Origin: Sporomusa sphaeroides DSM 2875
GTDB taxonomy: Bacteria > Bacillota > Negativicutes > Sporomusales > Sporomusaceae
NCBI RefSeq assembly: GCF_001941975.2
Contig: NZ_CP146991.1
Span: 4,519,501 to 4,583,500 of the forward strand
Reading direction: 5' to 3'
Length of the DNA stretch: 64,000 nt
How positions within the stretch are numbered: the first letter of the stretch is position 1; the number at the start of each line of letters is the position of its first letter. Below the pieces are notes generated by a model. That model was not told where the DNA came from and ran no database searches. It saw only the letters and a program-made list of their open reading frames with translations. Shown piece after piece: positions 947-61,499 of this stretch. A program made the translations under genes and the position numbers.

Positions 947-975
947 CAAGTAAAATCATAGAGGTGGTAATACAT

Positions 976-2157: not shown

Positions 2158-2196
2158 TACCATACATGTTATATAAATTTATCAGGAGGATTTTAG

Positions 2197-3054: not shown

Positions 3055-3128
3055 AAGGGTTTATTCCGCGCTTCTATCGGTTTAGTTAGAATAGTTGCAA
3101 TTACGGTATATGTAAAATTATATGTCAA

Positions 3129-3166
3129 AAAAGGGGCTGTCGCAGTAACCCAGCCCCTTTTATTTC
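3129..3166 (+). terminator. terminator after hbd, with an IS-end-like 5' arm
   Basis: AAAAGGGGCTG pairs with CAGCCCCTTTT across a short loop and is followed by a T-rich tail, a good intrinsic terminator after hbd. Its 5' arm GGGGCTGTCGCA (3133-3144) is identical over 12 bases to the terminal inverted repeat of the IS1182-family element at 41117. Confidence 0.85.
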
Positions 3167-3173
3167 CACCCCC

Positions 3174-3200
3174 AAAGAGGCGGACTAACCGCCTCTTTTA
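3174..3200. terminator. second hairpin, usable in both directions
   Basis: AAAGAGGCGG and CCGCCTCTTT form a 10-bp perfect stem around ACTAA, with T on one flank and A on the other. It backs up the hbd terminator and isolates the small gene downstream. Confidence 0.75.
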
Positions 3201-3256
3201 TGTTGTCACATGCTAAGAGGAAAAAGGCATAAGAAAAACCGCCCCCAAAGGACGGT

Positions 3257-3296
3257 TATGGTATAATATGTAAAGGACGGGATTACGGCCCGTCCT
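3257..3296 (+). promoter_or_regulatory. extended -10 promoter and 5' stem for the small ORF at 3321
   Basis: TATGGTATAAT (3257-3267) is an extended -10 box; no good -35 is visible. About 7 bases downstream the transcript would open with a 7-bp perfect stem GGACGGG/CCCGTCC (3275-3295). A hairpin at the very 5' end of a short mRNA often stabilises it. Confidence 0.55.
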
Positions 3297-3320
3297 AAAC
3301 TGAATACGGGAGGTGATTTC

Positions 3321-3413
3321 ATGTGGATTTCTCCACAGGTGATTGTCTGGTTGATTATTGCGCTAACAATAATCGCACTTAAACCGGATAAAATCACTGT
3401 CTGGTTCCGCTAA
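3321..3413 (+). CDS. 30-residue single-helix membrane peptide
   Basis: A short ORF with a strong Shine-Dalgarno sequence (GGGAGGTGA, 3309-3317) 3-4 bases before the ATG. The peptide starts MWISPQ, runs through a continuous hydrophobic helix (VIVWLIIALTIIAL) and ends with the charged tail KPDKITVWFR. I recognise no family. It has its own promoter, a 5' stem and a downstream hairpin, so it looks like an independent small gene. Alternatives are a type I toxin-like peptide or a small membrane regulator. Only the ORF, ribosome site and flanking structures are seen; function is unknown. Confidence 0.6.
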   Translation: MWISPQVIVWLIIALTIIALKPDKITVWFR

Positions 3414-3428
3414 CCTCCGGTATCCATC

Positions 3429-3461
3429 GAACGTCCCTGCGCCAACAGGGGCGTTCATTTA
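3429..3461 (+). terminator. terminator of the small membrane peptide gene
   Basis: GAACGTCCCTG pairs with CAGGGGCGTTC (one wobble) around GCCAA, followed by a weak T-rich stretch. It may also serve ettA from the other strand, but no T-run follows in that direction. Confidence 0.6.
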
Positions 3462-3570
3462 GTTTCTATGCTTATTATACCCTATTTATACATATTTTAA
3501 AATGGTTTATTATTATTTTAAATACCCCACCTTTCTAAACGCCCAAAAATCCGGGTTTTTCAGTAGCTTC

Positions 3571-17890: not shown

Positions 17891-17952
17891 AATTGCCCAG
17901 ACTAACGCGCAAATCCCCTCCCCATCGCTCGTGGGTGAAAACCGGTGATTGT

Positions 17953-18119
17953 CAAACAGGCAGATCTTCTGACTCAGGTTCATAGCCAAACTGCGCCTTC
18001 CCAAAATAGCAAGCTATTTCAGTGGCTTGTTGCAGGCAGCTCCCCTTCACAGCGGCGGGACCGTGCCGGATTTCAACCGGCTTCCCTATTAAGCCCAATC
18101 GGGCACCTGTTCCATATTA
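17953..18119 (-). promoter_or_regulatory. cobalamin riboswitch
   Basis: The minus strand shows the aptamer landmarks in order: GGAACAGGTGCCC, GGGAAGCCGGTTGAAATCCG, then CACGGTCCCGCCGCTGTGA, the B12 box GCCACTG and the closing AGTCAGAAGATCTGCC. It senses adenosyl- or methylcobalamin and controls cobI-btuCDF through the terminator at 17848-17890. Confidence 0.97.
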
Positions 18120-18198
18120 AGTTATTTAAATTGTATGATTAAAAGTGCAAAAAGTCAAGCAGATTATGTCTGCCCCGGTCTCAAAGCATGGCAAATAA

Positions 18199-48004: not shown

Positions 48005-48754
48005 TTATAAAATCAACCGCTTAGTCATGAGCTTTACGGCCAGCGGCATTAACAAAGCCGCCAGCAGCACCAGCACCCCGGCATGCACCAGCAGGCTGGG
48101 ATTACTGTTTCCCAAAACCAGCGCCCGACATACTTCCACACTGTGATAAATCGGATTAAACCAGGCTACCGCCTGTGCCCATCCCGGCATGGAATGGATG
48201 GGAAAAAATACGCCGGAAAAGAGATAAGCCGGTGTTAAAAACAAGGTTATGTAGTAATTAAATTTATCAATATTCTCAATGAGACCGGTATAACAAATGG
48301 CTAACAGGGAAAATGCCAGCCCCGGAATAGCCAAAAACAACGGAATCAATAATGCCCACCAGGACTGGACTTGCCCCAGGGCGGTAATGACTGTCAGAAT
48401 AACCAGCCCAAACAGCATGCTCTTACAGGTGCCGTACAAAACATCGCCGGCAACAATATCGCGGACAGTAACCGGACCGGCCAGCATAGCATGAAAAGTC
48501 TTTTGGTAATGGAGTCTGACAAAACTGCCATACGTACACTCAAACGAAGCGGCAAACATGGCTGAAGAAGCCACCATTCCTGGCGCAATATACTGGATAT
48601 AGGACAACCCGTCGATATCCCGGACAAAGCTCCCCAGTCCATACCCCATAGCCGTAAGATAGAGCAGCGGTTCAATAAAATTGAACATTACATTCGTAAA
48701 CCATATCTTTTTAAACACTGCCAGGTGGCGGGCAAAAATCCGCAAAATGGCCAT
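48005..48754 (-). CDS. ABC-2 type permease (NodJ-like)
   Basis: A 249-residue membrane protein with six helices: KIWFTNVMFNFIEPLLYL, GMVASSAMFAASFECTYGSF, then IPGLAFSLLAICYTG and SGVFFPIHSMPGWAQAVAW. It is the permease of an exporter whose ATPase gene is directly upstream (TAATG overlap at 48754). An upstream extension of the frame is discarded: ATG 48754 is preceded by GGGGGCG. Confidence 0.9.
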   Translation of the reverse strand: MAILRIFARHLAVFKKIWFTNVMFNFIEPLLYLTAMGYGLGSFVRDIDGLSYIQYIAPGMVASSAMFAASFECTYGSFVRLHYQKTFHAMLAGPVTVRDIVAGDVLYGTCKSMLFGLVILTVITALGQVQSWWALLIPLFLAIPGLAFSLLAICYTGLIENIDKFNYYITLFLTPAYLFSGVFFPIHSMPGWAQAVAWFNPIYHSVEVCRALVLGNSNPSLLVHAGVLVLLAALLMPLAVKLMTKRLIL

Positions 48755-49683
48755 TATGCTTCGCCCCCTGAGCCGGTCAGCTTCAAAAACACATCCTCCA
48801 GATTGGACGGTCTGAGCAGGCAGGCATGCTGCGGCAGCCCCCACTCTTCCAGGCTGTGCCACAAGGCCTTCCCGTCGGCAGCATATAAAAAGAGACCATC
48901 CACCACCTGGATAACCTGACCGCCCCAGGCCGTAACCTTCTCCGCCAAACCGGCCGGCAATTCGCTTAGCGGCAGATGCACCTCAATCGCGTCAGGCAAA
49001 ACATAGGTTTCAATCAAATGATGCGGGCTGCCTTCGGCCAAAATAATACCCTCATGCATGATGACCAGCCGGTCGCATAGCTGTACCGCCTCCTCCATGT
49101 AATGGGTCGTCAAAATCAGTGTCACACCACTGGCTTTAAGGCTGCGGAGCTTTTGCCACACCAAATGCCTGGCCTGAGGATCAAGCCCGGTGGTCGGTTC
49201 GTCCAGAATCACAATGTCCGGCTGGTTTATCAGAGCCCGGGCAATGACCAGCCGCCGCTTCAGGCCGCCTGACAAGCTTTCGATCTTATTATGCTGCTTA
49301 TCTTCAAGTCCCATGAAATTGAGCAGCTCCTGTCCCCGCTTCCTGGACTCGGTGCGGGTAAGGCCAAAAACCACGCCATAAGCCTCCAGATTCTCAAGGA
49401 CAGTCAATTCCACGTCCAAATTGTCCTCCTGGGGCACAACACCCAGCCGGGCCTTAATCGCCGGCGGCGTCAGTCTGACCGGCTCTCGAAACAGCCACAG
49501 CCGGCCCTCCTCTACCGTGGACATGCCATACATCATGCGCATGGTCGTAGTTTTACCCGCACCGTTATGACCTAAAAAGCCATAGCACTCTCCGGCCTGA
49601 ATGCTGAAGGAAATGCCTTTAAGCGCCCGAAAGCTGCCATATGTTTTGCCAAGGTTTTCGGCCCTGACAATTTGTTCATTCAT
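48754..49683 (-). CDS. ABC exporter ATPase (NodI-like)
   Basis: A 309-residue ATPase with Walker A GHNGAGKTTT, signature LSGGLKRRLVIARAL, Walker B IVILDEPTTGLD and the C-terminal SNLEDVFLKLTG. The pair resembles NodIJ exporters of lipo-oligosaccharides or drugs. It starts 24 bases after a terminator that closes the heme operon, so it is a separate unit. Confidence 0.9.
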   Translation of the reverse strand: MNEQIVRAENLGKTYGSFRALKGISFSIQAGECYGFLGHNGAGKTTTMRMMYGMSTVEEGRLWLFREPVRLTPPAIKARLGVVPQEDNLDVELTVLENLEAYGVVFGLTRTESRKRGQELLNFMGLEDKQHNKIESLSGGLKRRLVIARALINQPDIVILDEPTTGLDPQARHLVWQKLRSLKASGVTLILTTHYMEEAVQLCDRLVIMHEGIILAEGSPHHLIETYVLPDAIEVHLPLSELPAGLAEKVTAWGGQVIQVVDGLFLYAADGKALWHSLEEWGLPQHACLLRPSNLEDVFLKLTGSGGEA

Positions 49684-49802: not shown

Positions 49803-50693
49803 TCAAGACTGCCGGCGTACAAACACAATCCAATCGCCGGCCTGCTGATGTTGTTTCAGCAAGTCGGGTATATCAGCAGAATCCTCCAGATAAACAGGCG
49901 TAATAACGGCTATCCGCAAATCCGGCTGTAACAACTGCAGCTTTTCCACAACTCCCAGCCGCCATTTACTGTGAAAATCACCCTGGTAATGGATAATTTT
50001 ATACTCAGGATGGGCCTGACGGTAGTTGGCAATACTCTCTGCCATCGTATCATCCTTCAGGCACTGCGCCTTATAATAATCCTCAAGTTTATCCGGGCTG
50101 ACCGGCATTGTTCCCGCTTTACCGATTTCAGTCATATGGGCGAGAAACCGTTCCCGGTATTCCCCGTCCGGGGTAAGATGAAGCTGCGGCAGGTAACCCG
50201 TCATCTCTGGTGCGATTTGTGTCAGCGACCCGGTTTTGGCATACTGCGCCGCCAGTGTGCGGGGAATATTGGCCGCAATAACCGGCAGCGAGTTAACGCC
50301 GGCAAACGCCACTAACGGCCGGTAGGCTTCCTGATAATTATTCCACGGACGGGACTTGGCCAGAAACTCCTGTTCTGTAATTTGGCCTGCCAGATAGTCG
50401 TCAAGCTGGCCTTGCACATCACGCTCAAACATTTCCAAAGATACAGCAAGCCCGGGCTGGTGGGCAAAGGTACGTTGCAGCAGTTCCAGCTCCAGTGCAT
50501 GCAAAACCGCATTATCGTGATACTCCCCGAACACCAGGACATCATACTGCTGAATGAGTCCGGCCATCGCTTCGACGGTCGTCTCCTGGCCGGCGACGGT
50601 ATAAATCCGGTAATCGGCCTGAGCCGCCTGCACAGCATTGGGCATTGTCAGCAACACTATCACCGCCACAATATATTTTATTATACTCATCAT
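49803..50693 (-). CDS. ChaN-like heme-binding protein
   Basis: A 296-residue protein with a signal peptide (IIKYIVAVIVLLTMPNAVQA). The mature part has VLVFGEYHDNAVLHALELELL, VSLEMFERDVQG and IIHYQGDFHSKWRLG, matching the ChaN/DUF399 family of iron-regulated heme-binding proteins. There is no lipobox, so it is periplasmic. It overlaps the receptor gene by 4 bases and is the last gene of the heme operon. Confidence 0.85.
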   Translation of the reverse strand: MMSIIKYIVAVIVLLTMPNAVQAAQADYRIYTVAGQETTVEAMAGLIQQYDVLVFGEYHDNAVLHALELELLQRTFAHQPGLAVSLEMFERDVQGQLDDYLAGQITEQEFLAKSRPWNNYQEAYRPLVAFAGVNSLPVIAANIPRTLAAQYAKTGSLTQIAPEMTGYLPQLHLTPDGEYRERFLAHMTEIGKAGTMPVSPDKLEDYYKAQCLKDDTMAESIANYRQAHPEYKIIHYQGDFHSKWRLGVVEKLQLLQPDLRIAVITPVYLEDSADIPDLLKQHQQAGDWIVFVRRQS

Positions 50694-52672
50694 AATGTAA
50701 AGGTCATGCCGGCATGGACCATGGATCCCATCAAATTAAGTTCTGCATCCTTCTTATTAAAGATATTCTTTACACCAAGCTGGCTGCTGAAATTTTCATT
50801 CCACTTTTTATTAACCGATACATTCCACAAGGCATAGGTTTTATGAATATCATCATTAGAGGAATACAAATAATCTTTCTTCCACTCGTTCCATAACACC
50901 GCACTGATACCATTTTCCCGGTTGTCATCATAATGTAGTTGTACCGTTCCCTGCTGCTTGGCCCGGCCTTCCAGCCGCTGCCCGGTCGTCCCGGTGGCAT
51001 CCAGATAGGTGTAATTGAGCTTCAGCGTCAGCTTGTCCGTCAGCTTGCGGCCAATTTCAAACTCCACACCGTCAATGTCGGCCTTGTCCTCATTTAAATA
51101 TTTTGAATCGGCACGCATTCCTACCCCCGGAACAAAAGACACCTTTGTATTCGTAGATATAAGGTCTTTCACATCATTAACAAAATACGATAATTTGCCA
51201 AAAGTGTTGCCTCTCTCCCCTTCGATAGCCAGCTCATAGCTGGTGGATTTCTCCGGTTTCAAATCAGGATTGCCGGTTACATGTACAGTCATACCTGCCA
51301 TTCTTTTCGTCATTTCCATATACATGTCATCCAGAGTAGGTGCTTTAAAACCCTTACCAACATTTAGCTTTAAACGGGAATTGTCGTTCATTTTGTAAGT
51401 CATACCCAGTTTGGGGCTGACATTGCCGGAAAAGCGGTTGCTGTCGTCATACCGCACCGAAGGAATAACCAGCAGACGGTCATTGACCAGCCACTCATCC
51501 TGCACATAGATGGCCGAATAATCCATATCAGCTTCCGAACCTTGTTTGGTAATATTGCCGTAAGTAATGTCAAAAATATTATTACCGGTACCAATTCGCG
51601 TTCCCCGGTATTCTTCCTTTCGAATTTCACCGCCTGTTGTCAGTAAATGGTTATCAGCAATCTGCGTTGAAAGATGTCCTTCCAGGGTCCAGGTTTTACG
51701 CTTGGAAACATCAAAGTCTGTTAGTTGTCCGGTGCTATCTAAAAAGCTTTTATTAATTTTTTCATGTTCCCCATAATAAGTCCGTATTTGATAATCACCA
51801 TTTTTAGCCTTACCGCGCAGCCCCAGGCTGAATTGGTCCCGGGTATTATCATAAGTGTCATTGCGAAGAGCCCCTGAGGTTTCGGTTGTGCGTCCCTTTA
51901 AATCCTCGCGCAATAAATTAATAGAGACATCAAGGAAGGTATCGTCAGATAAATCATAGGTACCTTCCAGGTTAAAATTGTCGCGCTGCCCGAATTGATT
52001 TTCAGCGGTACCATCATCATTAGTATAAGCATCGGTCTCAGTCCGGTCGGCACTGACAATCCAGGACCATTTGCTATTTTTGCCACTATCATAGCGAAGA
52101 AAATAATTTTCATTACCGACACTAAATTTATCACTGTAGCGCTGGGGGCTTAGGGAAAAAGTAAACTCTTCCTTCTCTGGTTTGCGGGTTATGATATTAA
52201 TTACACCTCCCAAGGCATCTGACCCGTACATAGAACTGACTGGTCCCCGGACAATCTCAATCCGTTCAACATTCTCCATGTTAATCCGTTCCAGTTCATA
52301 GGAATTGGCAGTCGAATAACTGCCTTCTGAAACCAACCGTTTGCCATTGATCAGAATCAGTGAATGTCGTGTCGACATCCCCCGTACGGTTATATTACTG
52401 CCAGCCATCGCCGGAGCGGAAACGTTGATGCTGGTAGCCATCTGCAAGGCATCGGCCAAATTATGCGCCCCGATTTTGTCTAGATCCTCCCTGGTAATGA
52501 CCTCAACAGCCGACGGGGTTTCTTTAATCTCCTGCTCGGTTCTGGTGGCTGTAATCGTTACATTGCGGGTATCAACGGCCTGTTCCTCCGCATAGACCGG
52601 CATAGCCAGTGCGGTTAATATCGACAGGCTCAGCAGCGTCAGCTTCCTGGGGCTTGTAAACACGTTTTTCAT
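50690..52672 (-). CDS. TonB-dependent outer-membrane receptor (heme/siderophore type)
   Basis: About 660 residues: signal peptide (LTLLSLSILTALAMPVYA), a TonB-box-like VTITATRTEQ, the plug (KIGAHNLADALQMA, GMSTRHSLILINGKR and IEIVRGPVSSMYGSDALGGV) and a 22-strand-type barrel with KVGKGFKAPTLDD and a C-terminal aromatic/hydrophobic end. It imports a chelate across the outer membrane, which a monoderm Firmicute would not need. The ATG at 52672 is preferred over GTG 52678. The leader element A lies just upstream. Confidence 0.95.
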   Translation of the reverse strand: MKNVFTSPRKLTLLSLSILTALAMPVYAEEQAVDTRNVTITATRTEQEIKETPSAVEVITREDLDKIGAHNLADALQMATSINVSAPAMAGSNITVRGMSTRHSLILINGKRLVSEGSYSTANSYELERINMENVERIEIVRGPVSSMYGSDALGGVINIITRKPEKEEFTFSLSPQRYSDKFSVGNENYFLRYDSGKNSKWSWIVSADRTETDAYTNDDGTAENQFGQRDNFNLEGTYDLSDDTFLDVSINLLREDLKGRTTETSGALRNDTYDNTRDQFSLGLRGKAKNGDYQIRTYYGEHEKINKSFLDSTGQLTDFDVSKRKTWTLEGHLSTQIADNHLLTTGGEIRKEEYRGTRIGTGNNIFDITYGNITKQGSEADMDYSAIYVQDEWLVNDRLLVIPSVRYDDSNRFSGNVSPKLGMTYKMNDNSRLKLNVGKGFKAPTLDDMYMEMTKRMAGMTVHVTGNPDLKPEKSTSYELAIEGERGNTFGKLSYFVNDVKDLISTNTKVSFVPGVGMRADSKYLNEDKADIDGVEFEIGRKLTDKLTLKLNYTYLDATGTTGQRLEGRAKQQGTVQLHYDDNRENGISAVLWNEWKKDYLYSSNDDIHKTYALWNVSVNKKWNENFSSQLGVKNIFNKKDAELNLMGSMVHAGMTFTL

Positions 52673-52696
52673 CACCACAACTCCTCATATAATTAG

Positions 52697-52756
52697 AATA
52701 AAAATAATAAAACTCCATGCGATATAAACCGTCATGGAGCTCACAGGCTCTCTTAT
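52697..52756 (-). promoter_or_regulatory. Com-type leader element A (before the receptor gene)
   Basis: On the minus strand: AGAGAGCC (52753-52746), then TGTGAGCTCCATG, a 13-base loop, CATGGAG and TTTTATTATTTTT. The stem CTCCATG/CATGGAG plus U-tract is a terminator; GAGC/GCTC is a competing hairpin. It lies between the hutW stop (52767) and the receptor start, inside the operon. See copies B, C and D. Confidence 0.8.
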
Positions 52757-52766
52757 GTTCCCGGTA

Positions 52767-54173
52767 TCAGCCCTGGGCGGCGATAGGTTCCACTTCCACC
52801 GAATGGACTCCGTCCAGCAGGGCGTGCAGGCATTCTAATACCGATTGCGTAATATTCATATGCCAGAACTGTCCGGCTACCGTTAAGCGGACAAGGTCGG
52901 CCCGGCGCGTAATCAGGCCGCGTGACTCCCAAATATCCAGCAGGGCTTCCAATTCCCAGACAACGGCCCCATAGTGCCTTGCCAGGACAGGCAGACTTAA
53001 ATATCCCCGCTCCAGCTGGCCGACAACCATATTATGCAGCTCACTGCCGTCAGGCTGCAGCGCCATCGCGGCAACAGGCTTATGCCCTTCCTCAATACTC
53101 TTGATATAAGCAGCCATATTCCGGTGCAAAAACATGGTTACGCCGCCGACATTGCCGCCAGCTCCGGCGCCAAACGGAATGACATTATGTCCCGCCTTGG
53201 TAAGGGTATTGTACAGGCTGCGCTCCCGGGTGGTTTTTCCCCAATGGCAGTTGCTGAGCCGGGAAAATATACCGGCCGACAAATTGGCCTCAGCCAGGGC
53301 AAACATTTCGGCCTGCTCGGCGGTGGTAGCTGCCGGCGGCAGTTTCCCGGCAGTAATCGCCTGCTGCAAAGCGCTGTTCGGATAAATATTAAGCTGATAT
53401 AAGTCCAGCCCGTCAATGGCCGCCAGCTTCAGCAACCGGATGTCGTTGGCCCAGACTTCACTGGTTTGATGAGGCAGCCCGTACATCAGGTCAATAATAA
53501 CCGTCGCCTGGTTATAGCCTGACAGCAGCTCCAGCTTCGCTAAAATGGTTTCCGTATCATCCATGCGGCCAACCGCACGCCGCACGCCGGTATCGAAGGA
53601 CTGAACACCGATGGAAACGCGGTTTACCCCATGGGCCAGCCAGGCTTCTATTTTGGCCGGTACCAAATCATTAATCCGCCCTTCAAGTGTTAACTCATAG
53701 TCATTGGCCAGCGGCAGGCAATCCTGAATCGCCCCCAGCAGGCGGGAAACATTTTGCGGCGCCAGGGTACTCGGGGTTCCGCCGCCAATAAATACGGCAT
53801 TGACCGGTCCACTGTCCAGATAGCTGCTGCCTTTACTCAGCTGCAGCTCTTTAACCAGACTGTCAATATACAGGGTTTCCATTTCCTCGTTCGAGTAATT
53901 CTGGAAAAAACCGCAATACAGGCAGCGCTGCCGGCAAAACGGGATATGAATATAGGCAACACGCTGTTCCGGTTTTACTTTTTGCTTCAGCAAAGATTGC
54001 CAGGTACTCTGCCAATTGCCTGGCAGCAGCGGCTTGCCGCGGACGCCGGCATGCACCACCCGGCGTTTTTCAAAGGCGGAGGTCAGCGGCTCACCGGCCG
54101 CAGTGCCAACAGTCAGAGCATATTGTTCGGAATCCATAGCAGTCAAAATTTGGTTTAATCTGTTTCCTCGCAA
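52767..54173 (-). CDS. hutW: anaerobic heme-degrading radical SAM enzyme HutW/ChuW
   Basis: A 468-residue radical SAM protein of the HemW-related HutW/ChuW branch: SAFEKRRVVHAGVRGKPL near the N-terminus, the cluster motif CRQRCLYCGF, GGGTPSTLAPQN and RVSIGVQSFDTGVRRAVGR. ChuW opens the heme ring anaerobically by a radical methyl transfer. The TTG start at 54173 follows GAGGTGATTG by about 6 bases. The flavodoxin encoded upstream is a plausible electron donor. Confidence 0.92.
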   Translation of the reverse strand: MRGNRLNQILTAMDSEQYALTVGTAAGEPLTSAFEKRRVVHAGVRGKPLLPGNWQSTWQSLLKQKVKPEQRVAYIHIPFCRQRCLYCGFFQNYSNEEMETLYIDSLVKELQLSKGSSYLDSGPVNAVFIGGGTPSTLAPQNVSRLLGAIQDCLPLANDYELTLEGRINDLVPAKIEAWLAHGVNRVSIGVQSFDTGVRRAVGRMDDTETILAKLELLSGYNQATVIIDLMYGLPHQTSEVWANDIRLLKLAAIDGLDLYQLNIYPNSALQQAITAGKLPPAATTAEQAEMFALAEANLSAGIFSRLSNCHWGKTTRERSLYNTLTKAGHNVIPFGAGAGGNVGGVTMFLHRNMAAYIKSIEEGHKPVAAMALQPDGSELHNMVVGQLERGYLSLPVLARHYGAVVWELEALLDIWESRGLITRRADLVRLTVAGQFWHMNITQSVLECLHALLDGVHSVEVEPIAAQG

Positions 54174-54185
54174 GCGGCAATCACC

Positions 54186-54716
54186 TCACTTTTCCCCGGC
54201 TGCTTGCAGCAGTTTTATTTTTATATCTGTAAATACCGCCCGTGCTGCCTGCAAGTCTCCGGCATCAGGATGTTTGGCGGCTTCCGCATAGCGCGCCAGC
54301 CGCTCCGGTGTAACAGCATGCGGATGATCTCCCGGCATTTTCTTAAACTGTTCTATTAAACGGGGGTCAATTTTTCCCTGGCAGATAAACGTTCCCACCA
54401 ATTGGTTACTGGCATCCAGGAATGCAGCAGCATTCTTCAGGCTGTCAGCAGCATGCTCCGAATCTGGATAGGCGCCCAGCGTGGCAAATAAGGCAACAGG
54501 CTTGCCCTCAATGGTCTTAAGAAACTCCTGAGCTTTCTTATCAGCAGTTCCTTTATCCACCCAAAAGCCAACTGCCACAAAATCATAATCTGTCGGTGAC
54601 GGCGCTGTCTCCACCGGAAACAAGCCGGCTTCCGGACCAAAAACCTCATGGATGGCTTCTGCCACCAGCTTGGTATTCCCGGTTAAACTTGAGTAAACAA
54701 TTAATGTCTTCATCAT
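54186..54716 (-). CDS. flavodoxin family protein (BilS-like)
   Basis: A 176-residue flavodoxin: KTLIVYSSLTGNTKLVAEAI is the FMN phosphate loop, and GFWVDKGTADKK and ATLGAYPDSEHA follow the other FMN loops. Two adjacent ATG codons (54716, 54713) follow GGGAGG. Its place before hutW fits a reductase that supplies electrons for heme or bilin reduction. Confidence 0.88.
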   Translation of the reverse strand: MMKTLIVYSSLTGNTKLVAEAIHEVFGPEAGLFPVETAPSPTDYDFVAVGFWVDKGTADKKAQEFLKTIEGKPVALFATLGAYPDSEHAADSLKNAAAFLDASNQLVGTFICQGKIDPRLIEQFKKMPGDHPHAVTPERLARYAEAAKHPDAGDLQAARAVFTDIKIKLLQAAGEK

Positions 54717-54734: not shown

Positions 54735-55472
54735 TTATTCACTATAATTTTTTAACCCCCGTGCCCCCCAGAGCAGCAATCCCAGGCCCATTAACCCCAA
54801 TATTGCAGTACTCCCGGCAGCCTGACTGTCCCAGGCCGGCAGCCGCATCAGTTTATTGGCAAGGCTTAACGGCAAAACCGAGACAATGGTTTGCAGAGCG
54901 GGCGGCAGATTCTGAACAGGAAAAAACGAACCGCAGAAGAAAATCATGGGGGTAATAATAAAATTATTAACAAGCGATATGTCGTCCGGATCGGCAATGG
55001 CTAAGCCCAAAGCAACTCCCAGCGCCGCAAAGAAAAAAGCCGATAACAATATGGCGATTACAGCAATGCCGGACAGCGCCGGCACAGCAAACGCCAGCCA
55101 GGCGACAACATATACCAGCCCACCCATTAATACACCACGGGTTATGCCTGCCAGGACAATACCGCCGACAATTTGCAGCGCCGGCACCGGACTTAAAAAA
55201 ACCGTCTGAAAGGTATGGAAATATAATCTCCCGGCACTTACCGACAAGGCGGTCTGCTGAAAAGAATTGAGCATGACTGTCAGGCTGACAATCCCGGTAG
55301 TCAAAAAAGGAACATAACCGCCGCTGACCTCAACCCGGGAACCCAGCCCCAGGCCAAAAGCAAATAAATAGATAACCGGAAACATCACTGCCGAAAAAAC
55401 ATAGCCCAGCTTGCCGATTTTTTTCTGCATTAACAGCATTTCCCGGCAGTATACCGCCCAATAGCCGCTCAT
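54735..55472 (-). CDS. ABC-2 type permease in heme operon
   Basis: A 245-residue membrane protein with about six helices (FSAVMFPVIYLFAFGLGLGS at the start; FFAALGVALGLAIADPDD; MIFFCGSFFPVQNLPPALQ). It pairs with the ATPase encoded upstream (4-base overlap). Exporters in heme operons are unusual; heme, bilin or siderophore efflux is possible. Confidence 0.88.
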   Translation of the reverse strand: MSGYWAVYCREMLLMQKKIGKLGYVFSAVMFPVIYLFAFGLGLGSRVEVSGGYVPFLTTGIVSLTVMLNSFQQTALSVSAGRLYFHTFQTVFLSPVPALQIVGGIVLAGITRGVLMGGLVYVVAWLAFAVPALSGIAVIAILLSAFFFAALGVALGLAIADPDDISLVNNFIITPMIFFCGSFFPVQNLPPALQTIVSVLPLSLANKLMRLPAWDSQAAGSTAILGLMGLGLLLWGARGLKNYSE

Positions 55473-56257
55473 GCCTGCCCCTCCCTGATTAAGCGGAGAA
55501 AAGCGGTTTCCAGTGTCGTCTGCTGATCATTGCCGGACTCAGCGTCAGCCAGTCGCTTAATGCCTGCCGGGGTATCAACAGCAACAATCTGCCCGGCTTT
55601 CAACAAGGCCACCCGCTGGCACAGCTGTTCGGCTTCCTCCATATAGTGGGTTGTCATAAAAATAGTGGTGCCGGCAGCCACCAGACCTCTGATCATGGCC
55701 CAAATATCCTGCCTGACATCCGGGTCAAGCCCGACTGTCGGCTCATCCAGCAGCAGCAGCCGGGGTTCGGGCAAGAGCGCCCGGGCAATTAAGAGCCGCC
55801 GGGCCATGCCGCCGGATAAAACACCCACCCGCTTACGGCACAGCTCTGTCAAATTGAACTTATGTACAAGCTCTTCCACCCGCTGCCGGGGTTTGGCAAC
55901 CCCATACAGCCTGGCATAGGTGAGTAATGCCTCCTGCACCGTGAACTCACGTTCCAGATTATTTTCCTGAGCCACCAGGGCAATCCTTTGTTTCATGCCC
56001 TGCCGTTCCCCGCCTCCATCCCGGCCAAATATCGTCAGCTGACCACCGTCAGGGCGGCTCAGCCCGGCAACCAGTTTCATCAGCGTGGTCTTGCCGGCAC
56101 CATTAGGACCAAGCAGGCCAAAGGTTTCTCCCTGAGCTACCGTTAAGGAGATACCGCGTAAAATCTCCTGCTTGTCATAGGTTTTGGCCAGCCGGTGCAG
56201 AACCAGGGCGGCCTCAGGCTCCCGGTGCGAGGCAAGTGTCGTGCGGGAAACAGACAA
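55469..56257 (-). CDS. ABC exporter ATPase in heme operon
   Basis: About 262 residues: Walker A GPNGAGKTTL, signature LSGGMARRLLIARAL, Walker B LLLLDEPTVGLD and TTHYMEEAEQLC. The frame starts as early as 56281, inside the preceding gene, but AAGGAGG within that stretch suggests the TTG at 56257. It overlaps the upstream ATPase gene by about 44 bases. It pairs with the ABC-2 permease gene at 54735. Confidence 0.85.
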   Translation of the reverse strand: MSVSRTTLASHREPEAALVLHRLAKTYDKQEILRGISLTVAQGETFGLLGPNGAGKTTLMKLVAGLSRPDGGQLTIFGRDGGGERQGMKQRIALVAQENNLEREFTVQEALLTYARLYGVAKPRQRVEELVHKFNLTELCRKRVGVLSGGMARRLLIARALLPEPRLLLLDEPTVGLDPDVRQDIWAMIRGLVAAGTTIFMTTHYMEEAEQLCQRVALLKAGQIVAVDTPAGIKRLADAESGNDQQTTLETAFLRLIREGQA

Positions 56258-57029
56258 GATGTGAACTACCTCCTTGTTCAACCGTCATCACCGTGGTTTC
56301 AACCCCATACAAGGAACGCAGGTTTTCAGCGGTAAATACTTCTTTTATCGAGCCGTCGGCAAAAATCCGGCCGTCTTTAACGGCGATAATCCGCTGACTG
56401 AAGCGGGCCGCATGATTCAAATCATGCAGTACCATAACAACCGTAAGCTGCCGGTCCTGATGCAGTTTGCGAACCAGTTTCATTAATTCCAGCTGGTGAT
56501 GCAGATCCAGGTAAGTTGTCGGTTCATCCAGCAGCAGCAGGCGGGGCTGCTGGGCCAGCGCCATGGCCAGCCAGGCCCGCTGCCGTTCACCGCCTGACAA
56601 GCTGTCCAGACGGCAGTGCTGCATTGCCTGCATACCGGTAGCTGCCAGCGCTTCGGCCATACAAGCCTGATCAGCGGTTGCCAGCTGTTCAAACATTTTT
56701 TTATAAGGCATCCGCCCATATGACACCAGATCATTGACGGTCATATCCCCCGGGGCATGTACTGTCTGAGGAAGAATGGCCATAATCCGGGCCACCTCCC
56801 GGGGCGGCAGGCTGTAAATATCTTTACCGTCTAAGAGGACAGTGCCGGCCAGCGGCGGCAACAACCGGCTCAACGCCTTCAACAGTGTCGATTTTCCCGA
56901 ACCGTTGGGGCCGATTATCGAGATCACCTCCGGTTTATCAATCACCAGATCCAACTGCGGCGCAATTACCTTATGGCCATAGCCCAGCTTAGCGGCACGC
57001 ACTTCCATAGTGTGATTGGTCAGGTTCAT
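56214..57029 (-). CDS. heme/siderophore ABC importer ATPase (HmuV-like)
   Basis: A 271-residue ATPase of the FecE/HmuV group: GPNGSGKSTL, LSGGERQRAWLAMAL, LLLLDEPTTYLD and VLHDLNHAARF. It powers the permease encoded upstream (ATGA overlap). Its C-terminus SSHLVCFPHDTC is longer than usual and shares DNA with the next gene. Confidence 0.9.
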   Translation of the reverse strand: MNLTNHTMEVRAAKLGYGHKVIAPQLDLVIDKPEVISIIGPNGSGKSTLLKALSRLLPPLAGTVLLDGKDIYSLPPREVARIMAILPQTVHAPGDMTVNDLVSYGRMPYKKMFEQLATADQACMAEALAATGMQAMQHCRLDSLSGGERQRAWLAMALAQQPRLLLLDEPTTYLDLHHQLELMKLVRKLHQDRQLTVVMVLHDLNHAARFSQRIIAVKDGRIFADGSIKEVFTAENLRSLYGVETTVMTVEQGGSSHLVCFPHDTCLAPGA

Positions 57030-58030
57030 CGTCTCATCCCCTTTCGCAGCAAATAAATAAAGAACGGAGCTCCCAGAAAAGCCATAAAAATTCCCACAGG
57101 CACTTCCACCGGACTGAACAGCGTACGGGCCACCGTATCGGCGGCTACCACCAGCGTGGCTCCCAGCACTGCCGCGCAGGGCAGCAAATATTCGAAATCA
57201 GAACCCACCAGCATGCGGGTTATATGGGGAACAATCAGTCCGACAAAGCCTAACAGACCTGCGACACTTACGGCGGAAGCGGCCAGCAGCGCCGCCAGCA
57301 CCACCAGCAAAAAGCGTGCCCTTTCTACCCTGATACCCAGTCCCTTAGCCACATCATCCCCTAATTGCAACGCGTTCAAATACCGGTAAGACAGTACCGC
57401 TCCCACTATGCCGATAATACTGTACGGCAAAATCATGCTGACATGATCCCAGCTGCGGCCCTGAAAGCCCCCAGCCATCCAGTTGACAACCCCCTGGACC
57501 TTATCGGAATGAAAAACCATGAGTGCACTCATGCCGCCGCCAAAAAAAGCCGCCAGCGCCACACCGGCCAAAATCAGCCGCAGCGGCTGCACCCCCCGGT
57601 CCCAGGACAATAAGAATACGATTGCGGCAGCCACCAGAGCGCCGCCAAAGGCCATCGCCGGTACCAGCGCCGTCAGTCCCGGCCACAAAATCATCACCGC
57701 CATAGCGGCCAGTCCGGCTCCCGCCGATACCCCGATAATACCGGGGTCGGCCAGCGGATTGCGCAGCACACCCTGCAGAATGCAGCCGGCCAGTGCCAGG
57801 TTTATCCCGGTCAAAGCTCCGACAAGTACCCGGGGAACCCGGATATTATAAATAATCTGGTAAACTTCCGTACCGGCCGGAGAGGCAAACACATTCCAGA
57901 TGTCAGACATACTGACAGCCACGGCACCCACCCTGATGCCAATTAACAGCGCCAGAACCAAGGCCGCCAGCCCGGTAATACTGATAACCGCCCGTCGGGT
58001 CATCCGCGGATCTGCAGCCAATTCTCTCAC
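57026..58030 (-). CDS. heme/siderophore ABC importer permease (HmuU-like)
   Basis: A 334-residue FecCD-type permease with about ten helices: IRVPRVLVGALTGINLALAG, GVLRNPLADPGIIGVSAGAG and GLLGFVGLIVPHITRMLVGS. The GTG start at 58030 shares a base with the stop of the binding-protein gene (TAGTG), implying translational coupling. It is part of a complete importer with the proteins encoded at 58030-59004 and 56214-57029. Confidence 0.93.
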   Translation of the reverse strand: MRELAADPRMTRRAVISITGLAALVLALLIGIRVGAVAVSMSDIWNVFASPAGTEVYQIIYNIRVPRVLVGALTGINLALAGCILQGVLRNPLADPGIIGVSAGAGLAAMAVMILWPGLTALVPAMAFGGALVAAAIVFLLSWDRGVQPLRLILAGVALAAFFGGGMSALMVFHSDKVQGVVNWMAGGFQGRSWDHVSMILPYSIIGIVGAVLSYRYLNALQLGDDVAKGLGIRVERARFLLVVLAALLAASAVSVAGLLGFVGLIVPHITRMLVGSDFEYLLPCAAVLGATLVVAADTVARTLFSPVEVPVGIFMAFLGAPFFIYLLRKGMRR

Positions 58031-59004
58031 TACTCAGCCACCTCCGGATATAAATGACCGGCCAAAATACTCATGGCTTCATCTACCTGAGTCCCGGGAT
58101 TAACGGCAAACAGCTTGTACGGCAGCCGGTGAACCTGATTGGTAGCTACAGCCTTCAACCCGCGCCAGGCCGGGTGGCCGGCCAGCTCATTGCTGAACTT
58201 GTCGCTTACCTTATCATCAGGACTATGGGTGATCAGCAAAATCTTATCCGGATTCTGCTTAGCAATATACTCCATACTTAGCGGCACATAGCCCATATGA
58301 CTCTGTCCGTCATCGCCCTGATCACCCAGATTAACAGCTCCCAGCCGTTTGACCAAATCACCGGTAAAGCTGCGCGAAGTTGCCATATGGAAACTTTCCG
58401 GCGACCCCCAGATAACGACAACCTTCGGTGCAGGGCGGTTTTTATTTTTATCAATTATGCTTTGATACCTTGACTGAATTTTGCCGATAACGGCGGCAGC
58501 CTGCTCCGGCTTTCCTGCTAAATCCCCATAAAACTGCAAGGTATCGATAACATGCTGATAGTTTTCCAGCGACTGCAGCAAAATGGGAATCCCCGCCTGA
58601 TCCAGCACCGGAATCAGGTTATGATGAAAGGGCATGTTAACCCCCAAAATTAAATCAGGCTTAAGAGTAACAATTTGCTCAAGGTTGGGATTCGGCGTAC
58701 TGCCAACAGCCGGCACGGCCGCTACCGCCTCCTTCACCGCCTGCGGCAAAGCTTCGGTACTGGGGCGCCCAACCACCGTCCCTCCCACAGCGTAAAATAA
58801 CTCCAGGCTGGAAGCGTTCAGGACAATTACCCGTTCCGGCCGGCGGGGTATTTCCACCTGCCTGCCGGCGCTGTCGGTTACACGGTAGCGCTCAGACACC
58901 TGACTGGCTGCGGGCTGTGACTGGCCTTTCCATAAAAACCAGGCACAGGCAGTCAGCAATACAACCAGCAGGCCAAGTGTCAGTTTAGTAATAGTTTGAC
59001 CCAT
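58030..59004 (-). CDS. heme/siderophore ABC importer binding protein (HmuT-like)
   Basis: A 324-residue class III binding protein. A hydrophobic N-terminus (LTLGLLVVLLTACAWFLWK) is either a lipoprotein signal with cysteine in LLTAC or a membrane anchor. The mature part shows RVIVLNASSLELFYAVGGTV, GRPSTEALP and NPNLEQIVTLKPDLILG. These segments match the cytoplasmic Com fusion protein at 60540 almost position by position. The operon content points to heme; the axial ligand cannot be assigned. Confidence 0.9.
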   Translation of the reverse strand: MGQTITKLTLGLLVVLLTACAWFLWKGQSQPAASQVSERYRVTDSAGRQVEIPRRPERVIVLNASSLELFYAVGGTVVGRPSTEALPQAVKEAVAAVPAVGSTPNPNLEQIVTLKPDLILGVNMPFHHNLIPVLDQAGIPILLQSLENYQHVIDTLQFYGDLAGKPEQAAAVIGKIQSRYQSIIDKNKNRPAPKVVVIWGSPESFHMATSRSFTGDLVKRLGAVNLGDQGDDGQSHMGYVPLSMEYIAKQNPDKILLITHSPDDKVSDKFSNELAGHPAWRGLKAVATNQVHRLPYKLFAVNPGTQVDEAMSILAGHLYPEVAE

Positions 59005-59036: not shown

Positions 59037-59750
59037 TCATTCGATTTGATAGTCTATCGGAATATTCATGGCAATCATTTGCCCGGTGTTATGGGTAAAC
59101 GGACAAACCTTCCGCACCAGCGCCAGAGCGGCCTCATCCAAAGCAGCTACCCCTGAGGAACGCAGCACCTGTACACTGGCCAGTTCACCAACCTCATTCA
59201 AACGCACCGCCACCGTGACCGTTCCTACCTGCCCCCGGCGCCTTGCCATATAAGGGTAATCCTTGCGTTTTTCAATTTGCTGGAGAAACGCATTAATAAT
59301 ACTGTCAAGCTCCCCGCCGCCAGGCGCCCTGGCAGCAGTCCTCTCTGAACCCGAACCGGCAGCAGGCTCTGCTGCAGTGCTTTTACCGCTGCCACCGGCA
59401 CCTCCGGCAACCGCTGCTGTTACCACCGCACTTTCACTGCCCGCCAATACATGTCCGGCACGCGGGACAGCCACTTGTCTGTCCACAGGACTAACTGCCG
59501 GCCGGGAAACAACCGGCTTTGCCTGGGTCTCCTCCGGGCTCGCAGCAGGACTGGCAGGGGAAACCGCAGGCGCAGGCTCACTGCTTTGACTGCTGCTGCC
59601 TTCCACAGCCGTAAGTTCAATAACCATCTGCCGTTCCGGCAACGGCTGGGATTCTATATTGCCAAGCACCGCTACCAGTAAAATGCCGCAGAGCAGATGA
59701 GCGACACAAGATAAACTAAAGGCCTTATACCAACACATACCATAGGTCAT
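59037..59750 (-). CDS. tonB: TonB protein
   Basis: A 237-residue protein: N-terminal membrane helix (SCVAHLLCGILLVAVLG), a long Ala/Pro/Ser-rich periplasmic linker (about residues 50-145) and the TonB C-terminal domain (KDYPYMARRRGQVGTVTVAV, then VLRSSGVAALDEAALALV). It transmits energy to the outer-membrane receptor. GAGGTGATTAG precedes the ATG. No exbB or exbD is in the window, so the motor genes must lie elsewhere. Confidence 0.93.
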   Translation of the reverse strand: MTYGMCWYKAFSLSCVAHLLCGILLVAVLGNIESQPLPERQMVIELTAVEGSSSQSSEPAPAVSPASPAASPEETQAKPVVSRPAVSPVDRQVAVPRAGHVLAGSESAVVTAAVAGGAGGSGKSTAAEPAAGSGSERTAARAPGGGELDSIINAFLQQIEKRKDYPYMARRRGQVGTVTVAVRLNEVGELASVQVLRSSGVAALDEAALALVRKVCPFTHNTGQMIAMNIPIDYQIE

Positions 59751-59797
59751 CTAATCACCTCACTTCAATAAAACACGCCGCAACTCCCGCTTTGTCC

Positions 59798-59853
59798 GGC
59801 AATAAAAAAACTCCGTGCAATACTACCCGCACGGAGCTCTCGGCTCTCTGAAG
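59798..59853 (-). promoter_or_regulatory. Com-type leader element B (between com and tonB)
   Basis: On the minus strand: CAGAGAGCC, then GAGAGCTCCGTGC, a 10-base loop, GCACGGAG and TTTTTTTATT. The 8-bp stem CTCCGTGC/GCACGGAG with U-tract is a terminator directly after the com gene; GAGC/GCTC (loop CGAGA) competes with it. It lies within the operon. Confidence 0.85.
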
Positions 59854-59887
59854 ATTATGTAGACTAAATTGTGTTACGCTTCCTCAT

Positions 59888-60076
59888 TTACCAACTGCTG
59901 ATCTTTGTTCCGGACTCTTGGCTGGATTTGCCGATATACTGAACAACACCGCAACGCGAACACTTGATTTCAACATCTTCAGCAATGCCGCGAAACAATA
60001 GTCGATTGCACCGAAAACAACGGACTTCCGGCAATCTTGATTTTGGCGGTCGCAAATTATTTAATTTAGTCTCCAT
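59888..60076 (-). CDS. stand-alone Com-like zinc ribbon protein
   Basis: A 62-residue protein resembling the phage Mu Com zinc ribbon: residues 19-42 have RCFRCNRLLF and VEIKCSRC, with C20, C23, C39 and C42 as zinc ligands. Mu Com binds mom mRNA and activates its translation by changing RNA structure. Basic flanks (RPPKSRLPEVR) fit RNA binding. The same residues line up one for one with the N-terminus of the fusion protein at 60540. ATG 60076 follows GGAGTGG; it is the first gene of the heme operon, between leader elements C and B. Confidence 0.85.
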   Translation of the reverse strand: METKLNNLRPPKSRLPEVRCFRCNRLLFRGIAEDVEIKCSRCGVVQYIGKSSQESGTKISSW

Positions 60077-60116
60077 GTGCACCACTCCAATAGATTGATA
60101 GAATACCCCTGTATCG

Positions 60117-60170
60117 AAAATAAAGCTCCGTGCCCGGTCTTAAGGTGCACGGAGCTCTCAGGCTCTCTTC
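60117..60170 (-). promoter_or_regulatory. Com-type leader element C (operon 5' end)
   Basis: On the minus strand: AGAGAGCC (60168-60161), TGAGAGCTCCGTGC, a 13-base loop, GCACGGAGCT and TTTATTTT. The 10-bp stem AGCTCCGTGC/GCACGGAGCT is the terminator; GAGC (60165-60162) and GCTC (60155-60152) form the competing hairpin with a 6-base loop. The element begins essentially at the predicted transcription start (about 60171). Confidence 0.9.
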
Positions 60171-60177
60171 TATAACC

Positions 60178-60206
60178 ATTATATTGATAATGATTATCAA
60201 AGTCAA
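60178..60206 (-). promoter_or_regulatory. Fur-regulated promoter of the heme operon
   Basis: The minus strand has TTGACT (60206-60201), a 17-base spacer and TATAAT (60183-60178). The spacer itself is the perfect Fur palindrome TTGATAATCATTATCAA (60200-60184), so Fur binding would cover the promoter completely. Confidence 0.95.
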
Positions 60207-60317
60207 CAGCTTTCTGAGAAAATTAAGTAAAAAAAATTTTTATTATTACTATACCTCTATCATCGGAAAAATCTCATAGCTTGGCTGGCTGTGCACCTCT
60301 TAATTTACCGTTTATTC

Positions 60318-60367
60318 TTGACAAAATCGTGTTTCTATTTTTATAATATTAATGAGAATGATTCTTA
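60318..60367 (+). promoter_or_regulatory. promoter and Fur-like box of the Com fusion gene
   Basis: TTGACA (60318-60323), 18 bases, TATAAT (60342-60347); directly downstream TGAGAATGATTCTTA (60353-60367) matches the Fur consensus at 12 of 15 positions and is a near-palindrome. It is divergent from the heme operon promoter, 110 bases away. Confidence 0.85.
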
Positions 60368-60368
60368 A

Positions 60369-60426
60369 AAAGAGAGCCTCGAGCTCCGCGATGAAATAGT
60401 ATTTCACGCGGAGCTTATTTGTTTTA
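60369..60426 (+). promoter_or_regulatory. Com-type leader element D (before the Com fusion gene)
   Basis: AGAGAGCC (60371-60378), TCGAGCTCCGCG, then a TGAAAT/ATTTCA inner stem, CGCGGAGC and TTATTTGTTTT. The 8-bp GCTCCGCG/CGCGGAGC stem is the terminator and GAGC/GCTC (loop CTCGA) the alternative. About 115 bases separate it from the start codon; they contain a small hairpin GCACC/GGTGC (60481-60496). Confidence 0.88.
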
Positions 60427-60539
60427 GCCGTTAACCGCTTCCCCCAATGCCTTCCGTCCTCATGAGGGAAGCTGAGCCTTGCACCGGCAAAGGTGCGTAA
60501 TACATATCCTGGTAAATTTAAATAAAAAGGAGTAATCGC

Positions 60540-61499
60540 ATGAAAACACAGCCTACCACCGGTAAAGTAAATACGGCAGGCTTCAGCGAATGCCGTTGTC
60601 CCAACTGCAACAGACTGCTTTTTAAAGGCCGGGTAAAATATGTTGAGATTCAGTGCCCAAAATGCCGTTTAGTGCAAACAATAAAAAAGGGAAGATCCCT
60701 GCGCCTTGTCGCGCTCAATCCCTCCAATGTCGATCTGTATTATGCTGCCGGCGGACAATTAATCGGCCGGCCCAGCACCACGGCCCTGCCTTCTGATTTG
60801 CTGGAAAAAATCAAAGATGTCCCGGAGGTTGGTGAAACACCCTGCCCGAATATTGATCAGATCATTGCCCTAAAGCCGGACCTGGTATTGGCAGCCGATA
60901 CTCACGTAAAACAGCCAACCCTCTCGACCCTGGAGAAAGCCGGTATACCGGTATATCGCCAACGCTTGGACAGTTTCCAGGAAATCAGCCAGGCCTTGCG
61001 CTTTTACGGCGAATTAGCCGACCGCCCCGGACAAGCCAACGAAGTAATTGACCGCTTGGACAGCAAATTACAGCAGGCCCAGGAAAGAAGCAAAAATAAA
61101 CCCTCCCCCCGGGTACTCACTGTCTGGGGCTCGCTGGAGAAATTGTATATGGCCCTGCCCAACAGTTTTACCGGTGATCTCATCAGCCGCCTCAACGCAC
61201 TTAATGTGGCCGGTGACAGCGATAACCCGGCCACACAGTATGCGCCGCTGACACTGGAATTTGCACTGCAAGCTGATCCGGACCTGATTTTGCTGATTAA
61301 TCACAGCGATGAAGCTAAGGTTGGCGATAAAATCCGCAATGAACTCATGCTTCACCCTGCCTGGCAAAAGCTTAAAGCCGTGCAGCAAAACCAGGTATAT
61401 CAATTGCCCTATCAGCTGTTTGCGGTTAATCCGGCCAGCCGGGCGGATATGGCCATAGATTTTCTGTCAAATTTATTTTATCCTGAGCCTCATTACTGA
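60540..61499 (+). CDS. Com zinc ribbon fused to a cytoplasmic heme/siderophore-binding domain
   Basis: A 319-residue fusion. Residues 18-42 form a Com-like zinc ribbon (CRCPNCNRLLF, VEIQCPKC; ligands C20, C23, C39, C42), matching the separate com protein in register. From about residue 53 it is a class III binding-protein domain (RLVALNPSNVDLYYAAGGQL, GRPSTTALP, NIDQIIALKPDLVLA) paralogous to the operon's binding protein at 58030. There is no signal peptide or membrane helix, so it is cytoplasmic. AAAAAGGAG precedes the ATG. Family knowledge and context suggest a ligand-sensing RNA-binding regulator; direct evidence is limited to domain order and leader elements. Confidence 0.85.
   Translation: MKTQPTTGKVNTAGFSECRCPNCNRLLFKGRVKYVEIQCPKCRLVQTIKKGRSLRLVALNPSNVDLYYAAGGQLIGRPSTTALPSDLLEKIKDVPEVGETPCPNIDQIIALKPDLVLAADTHVKQPTLSTLEKAGIPVYRQRLDSFQEISQALRFYGELADRPGQANEVIDRLDSKLQQAQERSKNKPSPRVLTVWGSLEKLYMALPNSFTGDLISRLNALNVAGDSDNPATQYAPLTLEFALQADPDLILLINHSDEAKVGDKIRNELMLHPAWQKLKAVQQNQVYQLPYQLFAVNPASRADMAIDFLSNLFYPEPHY

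Follow-up and report, generated by a model that had tools for sequence, protein, structure and literature searches.

Com Zinc-Ribbon Proteins as Candidate Antiterminators at Four Predicted Attenuators of a Heme-Uptake Locus in Sporomusa sphaeroides

The window analyzed here, a 64,000-nucleotide stretch of the genome of Sporomusa sphaeroides DSM 2875 (NZ_CP146991.1, positions 4,519,501 to 4,583,500), contains a heme-uptake locus with four copies (A to D) of a short element. We propose, with a probability of roughly 80%, that each copy is a protein-controlled transcription attenuator at which binding of the zinc-ribbon protein Com holds the antiterminator, and that a fusion of Com to a binding-protein domain (Com-PBP) is the heme-informed form. 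The heme genes would probably be turned on by cancelling early transcription stops. At the level of sequence, this proposal draws on two predicted, mutually exclusive hairpins, the fit of the element to a published SELEX motif, a genomic coupling to Com, and a predicted sensor fold. We infer that Com binds elements A to D and, by analogy with Com of phage Mu, that binding would favor readthrough.

RESULTS

The heme-uptake locus encodes the Com zinc ribbon twice

Based on profile searches, the Com zinc ribbon is encoded twice in the heme-uptake locus, by the free com gene and as part of the Com-PBP fusion (Table 1). Exactly two matches to PF10122 were found in a scan of the genome, both in the heme locus, and together with the four elements they all lie within 9 kb. 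Elements C, B, and A are part of a minus-strand operon with the order C, com, B, tonB, the gene for a heme-type binding protein, the genes for the FecCD permease and the ABC ATPase, a second ABC pair, the flavodoxin gene, hutW, A, and the gene for the TonB-dependent receptor; D lies 5' of a divergent plus-strand gene, i.e., com-PBP. The gene set resembles the hmu loci of anaerobes in the portions of PMC10404700 that describe them, and a word search for Com in the hmu-locus text of these portions gave no passage.

Elements C and D are located close to promoter-like sequences, of which the scanned region contains 4 compared to 1.8 in shuffled sequences. The Com-site hairpin of element C lies 9 bases past the −10-like hexamer of its promoter, and D lies approximately 17 bases past the expected start of its promoter. 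The 17-base spacer of the C promoter, TTGATAATCATTATCAA, resembles what we take to be the consensus of the Fur box, as does, under the same assumption, AATGAGAATGATTCTTA immediately downstream of the D promoter.

Further ABC-type ATPase/permease pairs are encoded on the minus strand at 54735-56281 and 48005-49683, within or adjoining the heme genes. The pair at 54735-56281 has relatives in 12 of the 39 loci compared and is perhaps, as a guess, an exporter of heme or a breakdown product. The window also contains a cobalamin riboswitch (RF00174, 115.2 bits; 17942-18125, minus strand) and a selenocysteine tRNA (RF01852; 9370-9462, minus strand).

Table 1. Coordinates, in window positions, of the genes, promoter-like sequences, and elements of the heme-uptake locus
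Feature	Position	Strand	Remarks
com	59888..60085	-	65-aa Com zinc ribbon; PF10122 38.7 bits vs cut-off 22.9
com-PBP	60540..61499	+	N-terminal Com zinc ribbon and Peripla_BP_2 domain; nearest is IsdE
tonB	59037..59750	-	–
periplasmic heme-binding-type protein, hmuT/isdE-like	58030..59004	-	N-terminal hydrophobic segment
FecCD permease, hmuU-like	57026..58030	-	–
ABC ATPase, hmuV-like	56214..57029	-	–
flavodoxin, hmuF/BilS-like	54186..54716	-	BilS model 132.8 bits, under cut-off 155
hutW/chuW, anaerobic heme-degrading radical SAM enzyme	52767..54173	-	TIGR04107 492.5 bits vs cut-off 400
TonB-dependent receptor	50690..52678	-	top NCBIfam model is heme/hemoglobin subfamily, under cut-off
ChaN-like heme-binding protein	49803..50693	-	–
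promoter-like TTGACT-17-TATAAT, 11/12	60178..60206	-	5' of element C
promoter-like TTGACA-18-TATAAT, 12/12	60318..60347	+	5' of element D
element A	52702..52757 (52697-52756 in the earlier note)	-	hutW/TonB-dependent receptor gap; Com-site hairpin 52736-52753, overlapped by terminator hairpin
element B	59801..59853 (59798-59853 in the earlier note)	-	com/tonB gap; Com-site hairpin 59833-59849
element C	60116..60172 (60117-60170 in the earlier note)	-	leader of com-tonB-heme operon; Com-site hairpin 60151-60168
element D	60367..60424 (60369-60426 in the earlier note)	+	leader of Com-PBP fusion gene; Com-site hairpin 60371-60387

Each element can form a strong terminator hairpin and a weak competing hairpin

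An earlier note on this DNA had described four copies with a common layout, and we confirmed them by direct reading, alignment, and genome-wide pattern and covariance searches. All four consist of AGAGAGCC, 2 to 3 bases, GAGCTCC, a loop, a complementary GGAG arm, and a T-rich tail. The strict pattern matched four times in the 5,015,343-base genome, always in the heme locus, and a reversed control pattern had no match. Similarly, the covariance model returned only A to D with E < 1e-8, followed by the antisense of C at an E value of 0.08. No Rfam family matched elements A to D at the gathering score, the only hit being to a miRNA family on the opposite strand of B, which scored under the threshold (19.4 vs 51 bits).

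Upon folding, the whole elements A, B, C, and D form terminator hairpins of −19.0, −21.8, −24.6, and −24.9 kcal/mol (z of −4.1, −4.0, −4.8, and −6.2), respectively. The same note had suggested that GAGC can pair with the GCTC arm of the terminator across a loop of 5 to 6 bases; the 5' 22 to 24 nt by themselves did fold into this GAGC/GCUC hairpin in four of four copies, the loop having 5 or 6 bases. The hairpin is weak (−4.2 to −4.5 kcal/mol; z only −0.5 to −1.8). As copies of the element precede several genes within a single Fur-type heme locus, these data support the suggestion of repeated conditional stops. A simple terminator scan of 59700-60560, with a loop limit of 3 to 8 and a strict T-window, gave no same-strand entry for B, C, or D. 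On the opposite strand, the reverse complement of the Com hairpin of D, together with its T-run (60387-60373, minus strand), scores as a terminator.

The two hairpins share an arm in 52 aligned copies

Regions of at most 20 kb surrounding matches to the element or to Com yielded 55 copies from 21 genomes, of which 52 were distinct and three were dropped as duplicates. Copies were required to have at most two substitutions from the consensus, a terminator stem, and a T-rich tail; this choice favors both helices, so that the high pairing is partly built in. The collecting scan overlooked some copies (e.g., in G027 and G079) that were later found with R1, the covariance model of the 52 copies.

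In the antiterminator, i.e., the Com hairpin (columns 8-11/20-23), 208 of 208 cells are paired. Changes on both sides occur in two of its four pairs and in three cells in total, one of which (L095, from G016) is doubtful because R1 had no match in G016 at E 1e-4; the pair-type count of this helix was not above that of shuffles (500/500). In the terminator helix (columns 18-27/49-58), 95% of 520 cells are paired, and both-side changes are found in 4 of 10 pairs (21 cells). Thus, the stems, which had been noted to differ among A to D and still pair, display compensatory change in the larger alignment also. Columns 20 to 23 pair in both helices, i.e., one arm is common to the Com hairpin and the terminator in every aligned copy, and the two structures are therefore mutually exclusive.

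The weak hairpin matches the published RNA motif of Com

In PMC6483171, SELEX with Com of a Haemophilus Mu-like prophage is described as yielding NGAGNNCC(N)2-3GAGNNCC, a motif that was bipartite in 868 of 999 sequences and sits in a hairpin closed by a C-G loop pair, in which the loop GA becomes less reactive to SHAPE when Com binds. The sequence AGAGAGCC(N)2-3GAGCTCC, present in all four window copies, conforms exactly to this motif, including the paired NN and the C-G loop closure. Among the 52 aligned copies, the spacer has 4 or 5 bases in 3, and a few copies alter other motif letters. The frame GA-stem-C(N)2-3GA-stem-CC is common to the native 19-mer of Mu, the SELEX motif, and the window element.

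The Com used for SELEX is a distant homologue of the Com proteins of the window. When a phage collection was searched by tblastn with the 64-aa Com of the window, nothing matched at E 0.01. The link to phage Com is therefore based on the Pfam profile, in which com scores above the cut-off of the zinc-ribbon family that includes Mu Com (PF10122). NCBIfam gave no model for the free com. To our knowledge, RNA binding is known only for phage Com and, according to PMC6483171, Mu Com is an activator that opens a translation-inhibition structure of one phage gene, mom. In contrast, the sites in the window are repeated, overlap terminator hairpins, and belong to heme genes of the chromosome, and one of the two Com zinc ribbons is joined to a binding-protein domain.

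The element co-occurs with Com, not with the heme operon as such

As the earlier note had proposed, the genomes of the class were searched with a covariance model. We used R1 on 300 genomes, with stricter filters for many of them, by which weak matches may be lost. PF10122 was found in 27 of the 300 genomes, in 25 of them over the cut-off. At E up to 1e-4, R1 had matches in 21 genomes, all with Com, i.e., in 21 of the 27 Com genomes and 0 of the 273 others (Fisher P = 3e-27, relatedness ignored). Because G006 is the sole positive outside the 21 source genomes, this test is stronger in its negatives than in its positives, and given the physical linkage of com and the elements, part of their co-occurrence is due to joint inheritance. 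The result that the note had named as speaking against its view, an ordinary terminator unrelated to iron genes, did not turn up in the homology search.

HutW was found in 106 of the 300 genomes (E up to 1e-60). R1 matched 21 of the 23 HutW genomes with Com and none of the 83 without Com; the corresponding numbers for the strict pattern are 18 of 23 and 3 of 83. By these counts, the heme operon itself is not the cause of the presence of the element. The two genomes with HutW and Com in which R1 had no match (G057 and G105) contain AGAGAGTC..GAACTCC hairpins changed on both sides (GAGT/ACTC) and followed, by eye, by a matching long-loop terminator. G007, G016, G087, and G167 have Com and neither HutW nor an R1 match. 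Strict-pattern matches in G097, G154, G188, and G196 were rejected as elements; they are single, have no terminator and no R1 match at E 1e-4, and the surrounding 14 kb contain no heme-locus gene beyond weak ABC ATPase similarity.

In the genus of the window, Com is present in four of nine genomes and R1 matches at 1e-4 occur in the same four; in genus g18, both are found in the same five of eight. With E relaxed to 0.01 in 28 genomes of the order, there were 8 with strong matches, all with Com, and 4 without Com (G103, G107, G119, and G143) with weak matches (E 0.002-0.01; 23-24 bits). Extra R1 sites were located 5' of genes for a TonB-receptor-like protein (L229), a small membrane protein (L230), and a binding protein (L231). 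The site at L230 (5218-5269, minus strand) is followed by the gene for the small membrane protein, which resembles what we take to be the DUF454 family.

Hairpins of a similar frame adjoin com genes in other phyla

A scan of genomes with the alignment of the fusions gave 49 loci, including those of Sporomusa, Pelosinus, Anaerospora, and Propionispora with SELEX-type elements. In 20 of these loci (L133-L152), from Deltaproteobacteria, Nitrospirae, SAR324, and others, short Com-like proteins are encoded, and hairpins of the form AGA-N4-YN2-3GA-N4'-C with differing stems adjoin the com genes. PF10122 is uncommon there (14 of 230 genomes in the class of G306 and 16 of 297 in the phylum of G313). 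The generic hairpin occurred 17 times in 12 of the 20 loci at −60 to +400 relative to the com stop, was absent near com in the other 8, and occurred 12 times elsewhere in 571,326 bases. This pattern was devised after some of the same loci had been viewed; a pairing-free test and the later loci L177-L197 are less circular. Among matches to the frame irrespective of pairing in 19 loci (L152 being left out; window of −120 to +400), 20 of 26 near com were paired compared to 9 of 183 elsewhere. The 20 paired hairpins have 12 different stem pairs; 8 have the C-G closure and 12 are unlike the SELEX rule. Of 27 loci found by Pfam, 12 had a sense hairpin (15 matches, 0 antisense), with 0.15 expected from shuffles. 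In the 21 loci added after the pattern was fixed (L177-L197), 7 had a sense hairpin (8 matches, 0 antisense); among the 14 hairpin-less ones, 10 have a PF10122 score of <30 bits, and L185, L187, L188, and L197 have a strong Com. Rfam gave nothing at the gathering score for the hairpins of eight of the other-phyla loci.

By eye, the hairpins overlap a terminator in L135, L141, L142, L144, L146, L149, L178, L179, and L180, with several hairpins in tandem, and lie near the ribosome-binding site, with no terminator seen, in L140, L145, L150, L151, and L130. The next gene encodes a TonB-dependent receptor in L139, L140, and L151 (Pfam) and in L128, L130, and L150 (by eye), a porin-like protein in L134 and L138 (Pfam, just under cut-off) and in L136, L137, and L149 (by eye), and an endolysin-type enzyme in L135 and L146 (Pfam) and in L142 and L147 (by eye); it is feoA-feoB in L144 (Pfam) and of another kind in L143 and L145. 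By eye, the endolysin-gene hairpins of L135, L142, and L146 overlap a terminator, which would fit a use of the same switch by phage lysis genes. L144 has tandem Com-type hairpins and a terminator 5' of feoA-feoB (644-3546); one cysteine is changed in its com, and the same genome has a second Com.

Com-PBP is a candidate cytoplasmic heme sensor

The zinc ribbon of Com-PBP scored 19.7 bits as a protein, under the cut-off of 22.9, and 23 bits, over the cut-off, in the genome scan. Its four zinc cysteines are invariant in 19 of 19 Com-PBP fusions, and by eye no signal peptide was seen in their N termini. The structure model, the best of five (the other four had a pLDDT of 63.6 to 67.1), has a mean pLDDT of 80.7, with values of <65 in the first 50 residues, including the zinc ribbon. 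Compared with known structures, the model was closest to IsdE with heme (Z of 29.1, rmsd of 2.1, 254 residues aligned), tied with Lmo2184 (Z of 29.0), and other binding proteins reached 25.5 and less. The sequence search also favors IsdE (profile E of 2.8e-33); the score against the NCBIfam IsdE equivalog, 135.3 bits, is far under its cut-off of 298.65.

A histidine that aligns with an IsdE histidine is kept in 19 of 19 fusions, and we take the latter to be the heme ligand His229. The second heme ligand of IsdE is presumably a methionine, which is not conserved in the fusions. A TPCP sequence in the window fusion was considered as a heme-regulatory Cys-Pro motif and dropped, because it is not conserved across the 19 fusions. 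The ligand of Com-PBP is most likely heme, and the fusion would add heme sensing; B12 or siderophores may be other ligands of this fold. Btr of Bacillus subtilis, in which an AraC DNA-binding domain is fused to a cytoplasmic siderophore-binding PBP domain, likewise uses a cytoplasmic Peripla_BP_2 domain as a sensor of an iron compound. Btr acts on DNA, whereas the domain fused in the window protein is a presumed RNA binder.

DISCUSSION

We suggest that at each element, RNA polymerase would make the hairpin GA-[GAGC]-C(N)2-3GA-[GCUC]-C, which at C and D would be almost the first RNA made from promoters that are presumably blockable by Fur. Because the terminator hairpin by itself is far stronger, the default should be a stop, with the terminator capturing the 3' arm of the weak hairpin. 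The Com zinc ribbon, free or in Com-PBP, would bind the GA-containing loop, hold the hairpin, and block the terminator, and readthrough would then reach com, tonB, the receptor gene, or the fusion gene. An iron gate (Fur) would thus be followed by a Com gate at four points. The IsdE-like domain would remain in the cytoplasm and most likely report heme, so that uptake of heme would open the stops. Positive feedback would be expected, because com and com-PBP are each preceded by an element of their own.

We take Com to be an antiterminator because the Com hairpin excludes the terminator and Mu Com activates. The sequence does not tell the direction, and Com might instead close the gate by promoting termination or by acting on translation or RNA stability, such that Com or heme-loaded Com-PBP shuts the operon. 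The hairpins near ribosome-binding sites in L140, L145, L150, L151, and L130, where no terminator was seen, would be compatible with such an action. We nevertheless consider it improbable, because the Com hairpin uses letters of the 5' arm of the terminator, so that a held hairpin excludes the terminator, and because Com is an activator in Mu. A true riboswitch, in which the RNA by itself senses heme, iron, or a metabolite, is a good deal less probable. The competing hairpins, the Fur-like context, and the lack of an Rfam family at the gathering score here speak for it, and of the riboswitch idea raised in the earlier note, the attenuator with exclusive hairpins stands. A ligand-sensing RNA as the best reading does not, given that the element fits the Com motif, Com co-occurs, and little sequence is left for an aptamer: the terminator leaves only approximately 15 nt of the conserved element uncovered, and these are the Com motif. 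In addition, the hairpins near com genes of other phyla retain AGA, the loop, and the closing C (a frame fixed by the search pattern) around stems of freely changing sequence, and none of the 83 HutW genomes without Com has an R1 match.

A repeat that has dispersed, or a family of ordinary constitutive terminators, in either case without regulation, is, in our view, slightly less credible still. Each copy does form a strong terminator hairpin followed by a T-rich tail, but two copies lie right behind promoters and two within the operon, changes in the stems are compensatory, no copy was found elsewhere in the genome, and presence tracks Com. The least probable of these alternatives is a DNA-level operator for Fur or another repressor. 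Although Fur-box-like sequence adjoins C and D, the element does not include the Fur-like palindromes, A and B are located between genes of the operon, and conservation tracks the RNA pairing and the T-rich tail.

The preferred reading, antitermination by Com, has counterparts in other bacteria. In the RAT elements of LicT/BglG-type systems, an RNA-binding activator also sets an antiterminator against a terminator; protein fold, RNA, and input are unrelated to those proposed here. Antitermination by an RNA-binding protein that holds a small hairpin with one arm in the terminator is already known from ANTAR/EutV, as presented for the Enterococcus eut operon in the relevant parts of PMC8934654. 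The likeness extends to four terminators in one operon and to tandem hairpins of which the second overlaps the terminator, as in L141, L142, L144, L146, and L149. The ANTAR systems differ in that a three-helix bundle recognizes hexaloops with A1 and G4, whereas the loop in the window is C/U(N)2-3GA and the protein is the Com zinc ribbon; with C-N2-3-GA loops, all four copies depart from the rule of A at 1 and G at 4. In searches of the open-access literature, we recognized no earlier account of Com in heme or iron operons or of antitermination by Com. As far as this literature shows, what would be new is the antitermination role of the Com zinc ribbon, its place in heme operons, and the binding-protein sensor.

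We are evenly balanced on a broader proposal, namely that Com zinc ribbons are widespread bacterial antiterminators, and elsewhere translation activators, of TonB-linked iron and heme uptake in several phyla, acting through freely covarying hairpins, and that Com-PBP, as the first RNA-binding sensor to be derived from a periplasmic heme-binding fold, detects heme in the cytoplasm and opens several terminators in the operon for its own uptake system. Because these chromosomal sites had no part in the selection of the SELEX motif, the prediction made for elements A to D is directly testable with one protein and four RNAs. If true, it would supply both a genome-wide target code and a host function for a protein family that we found studied only in phage Mu and its kin, the zinc ribbon would be added to the short list of protein folds known to act on intrinsic termination, and a candidate heme/iron sensor that acts on RNA in anaerobes would have been named.
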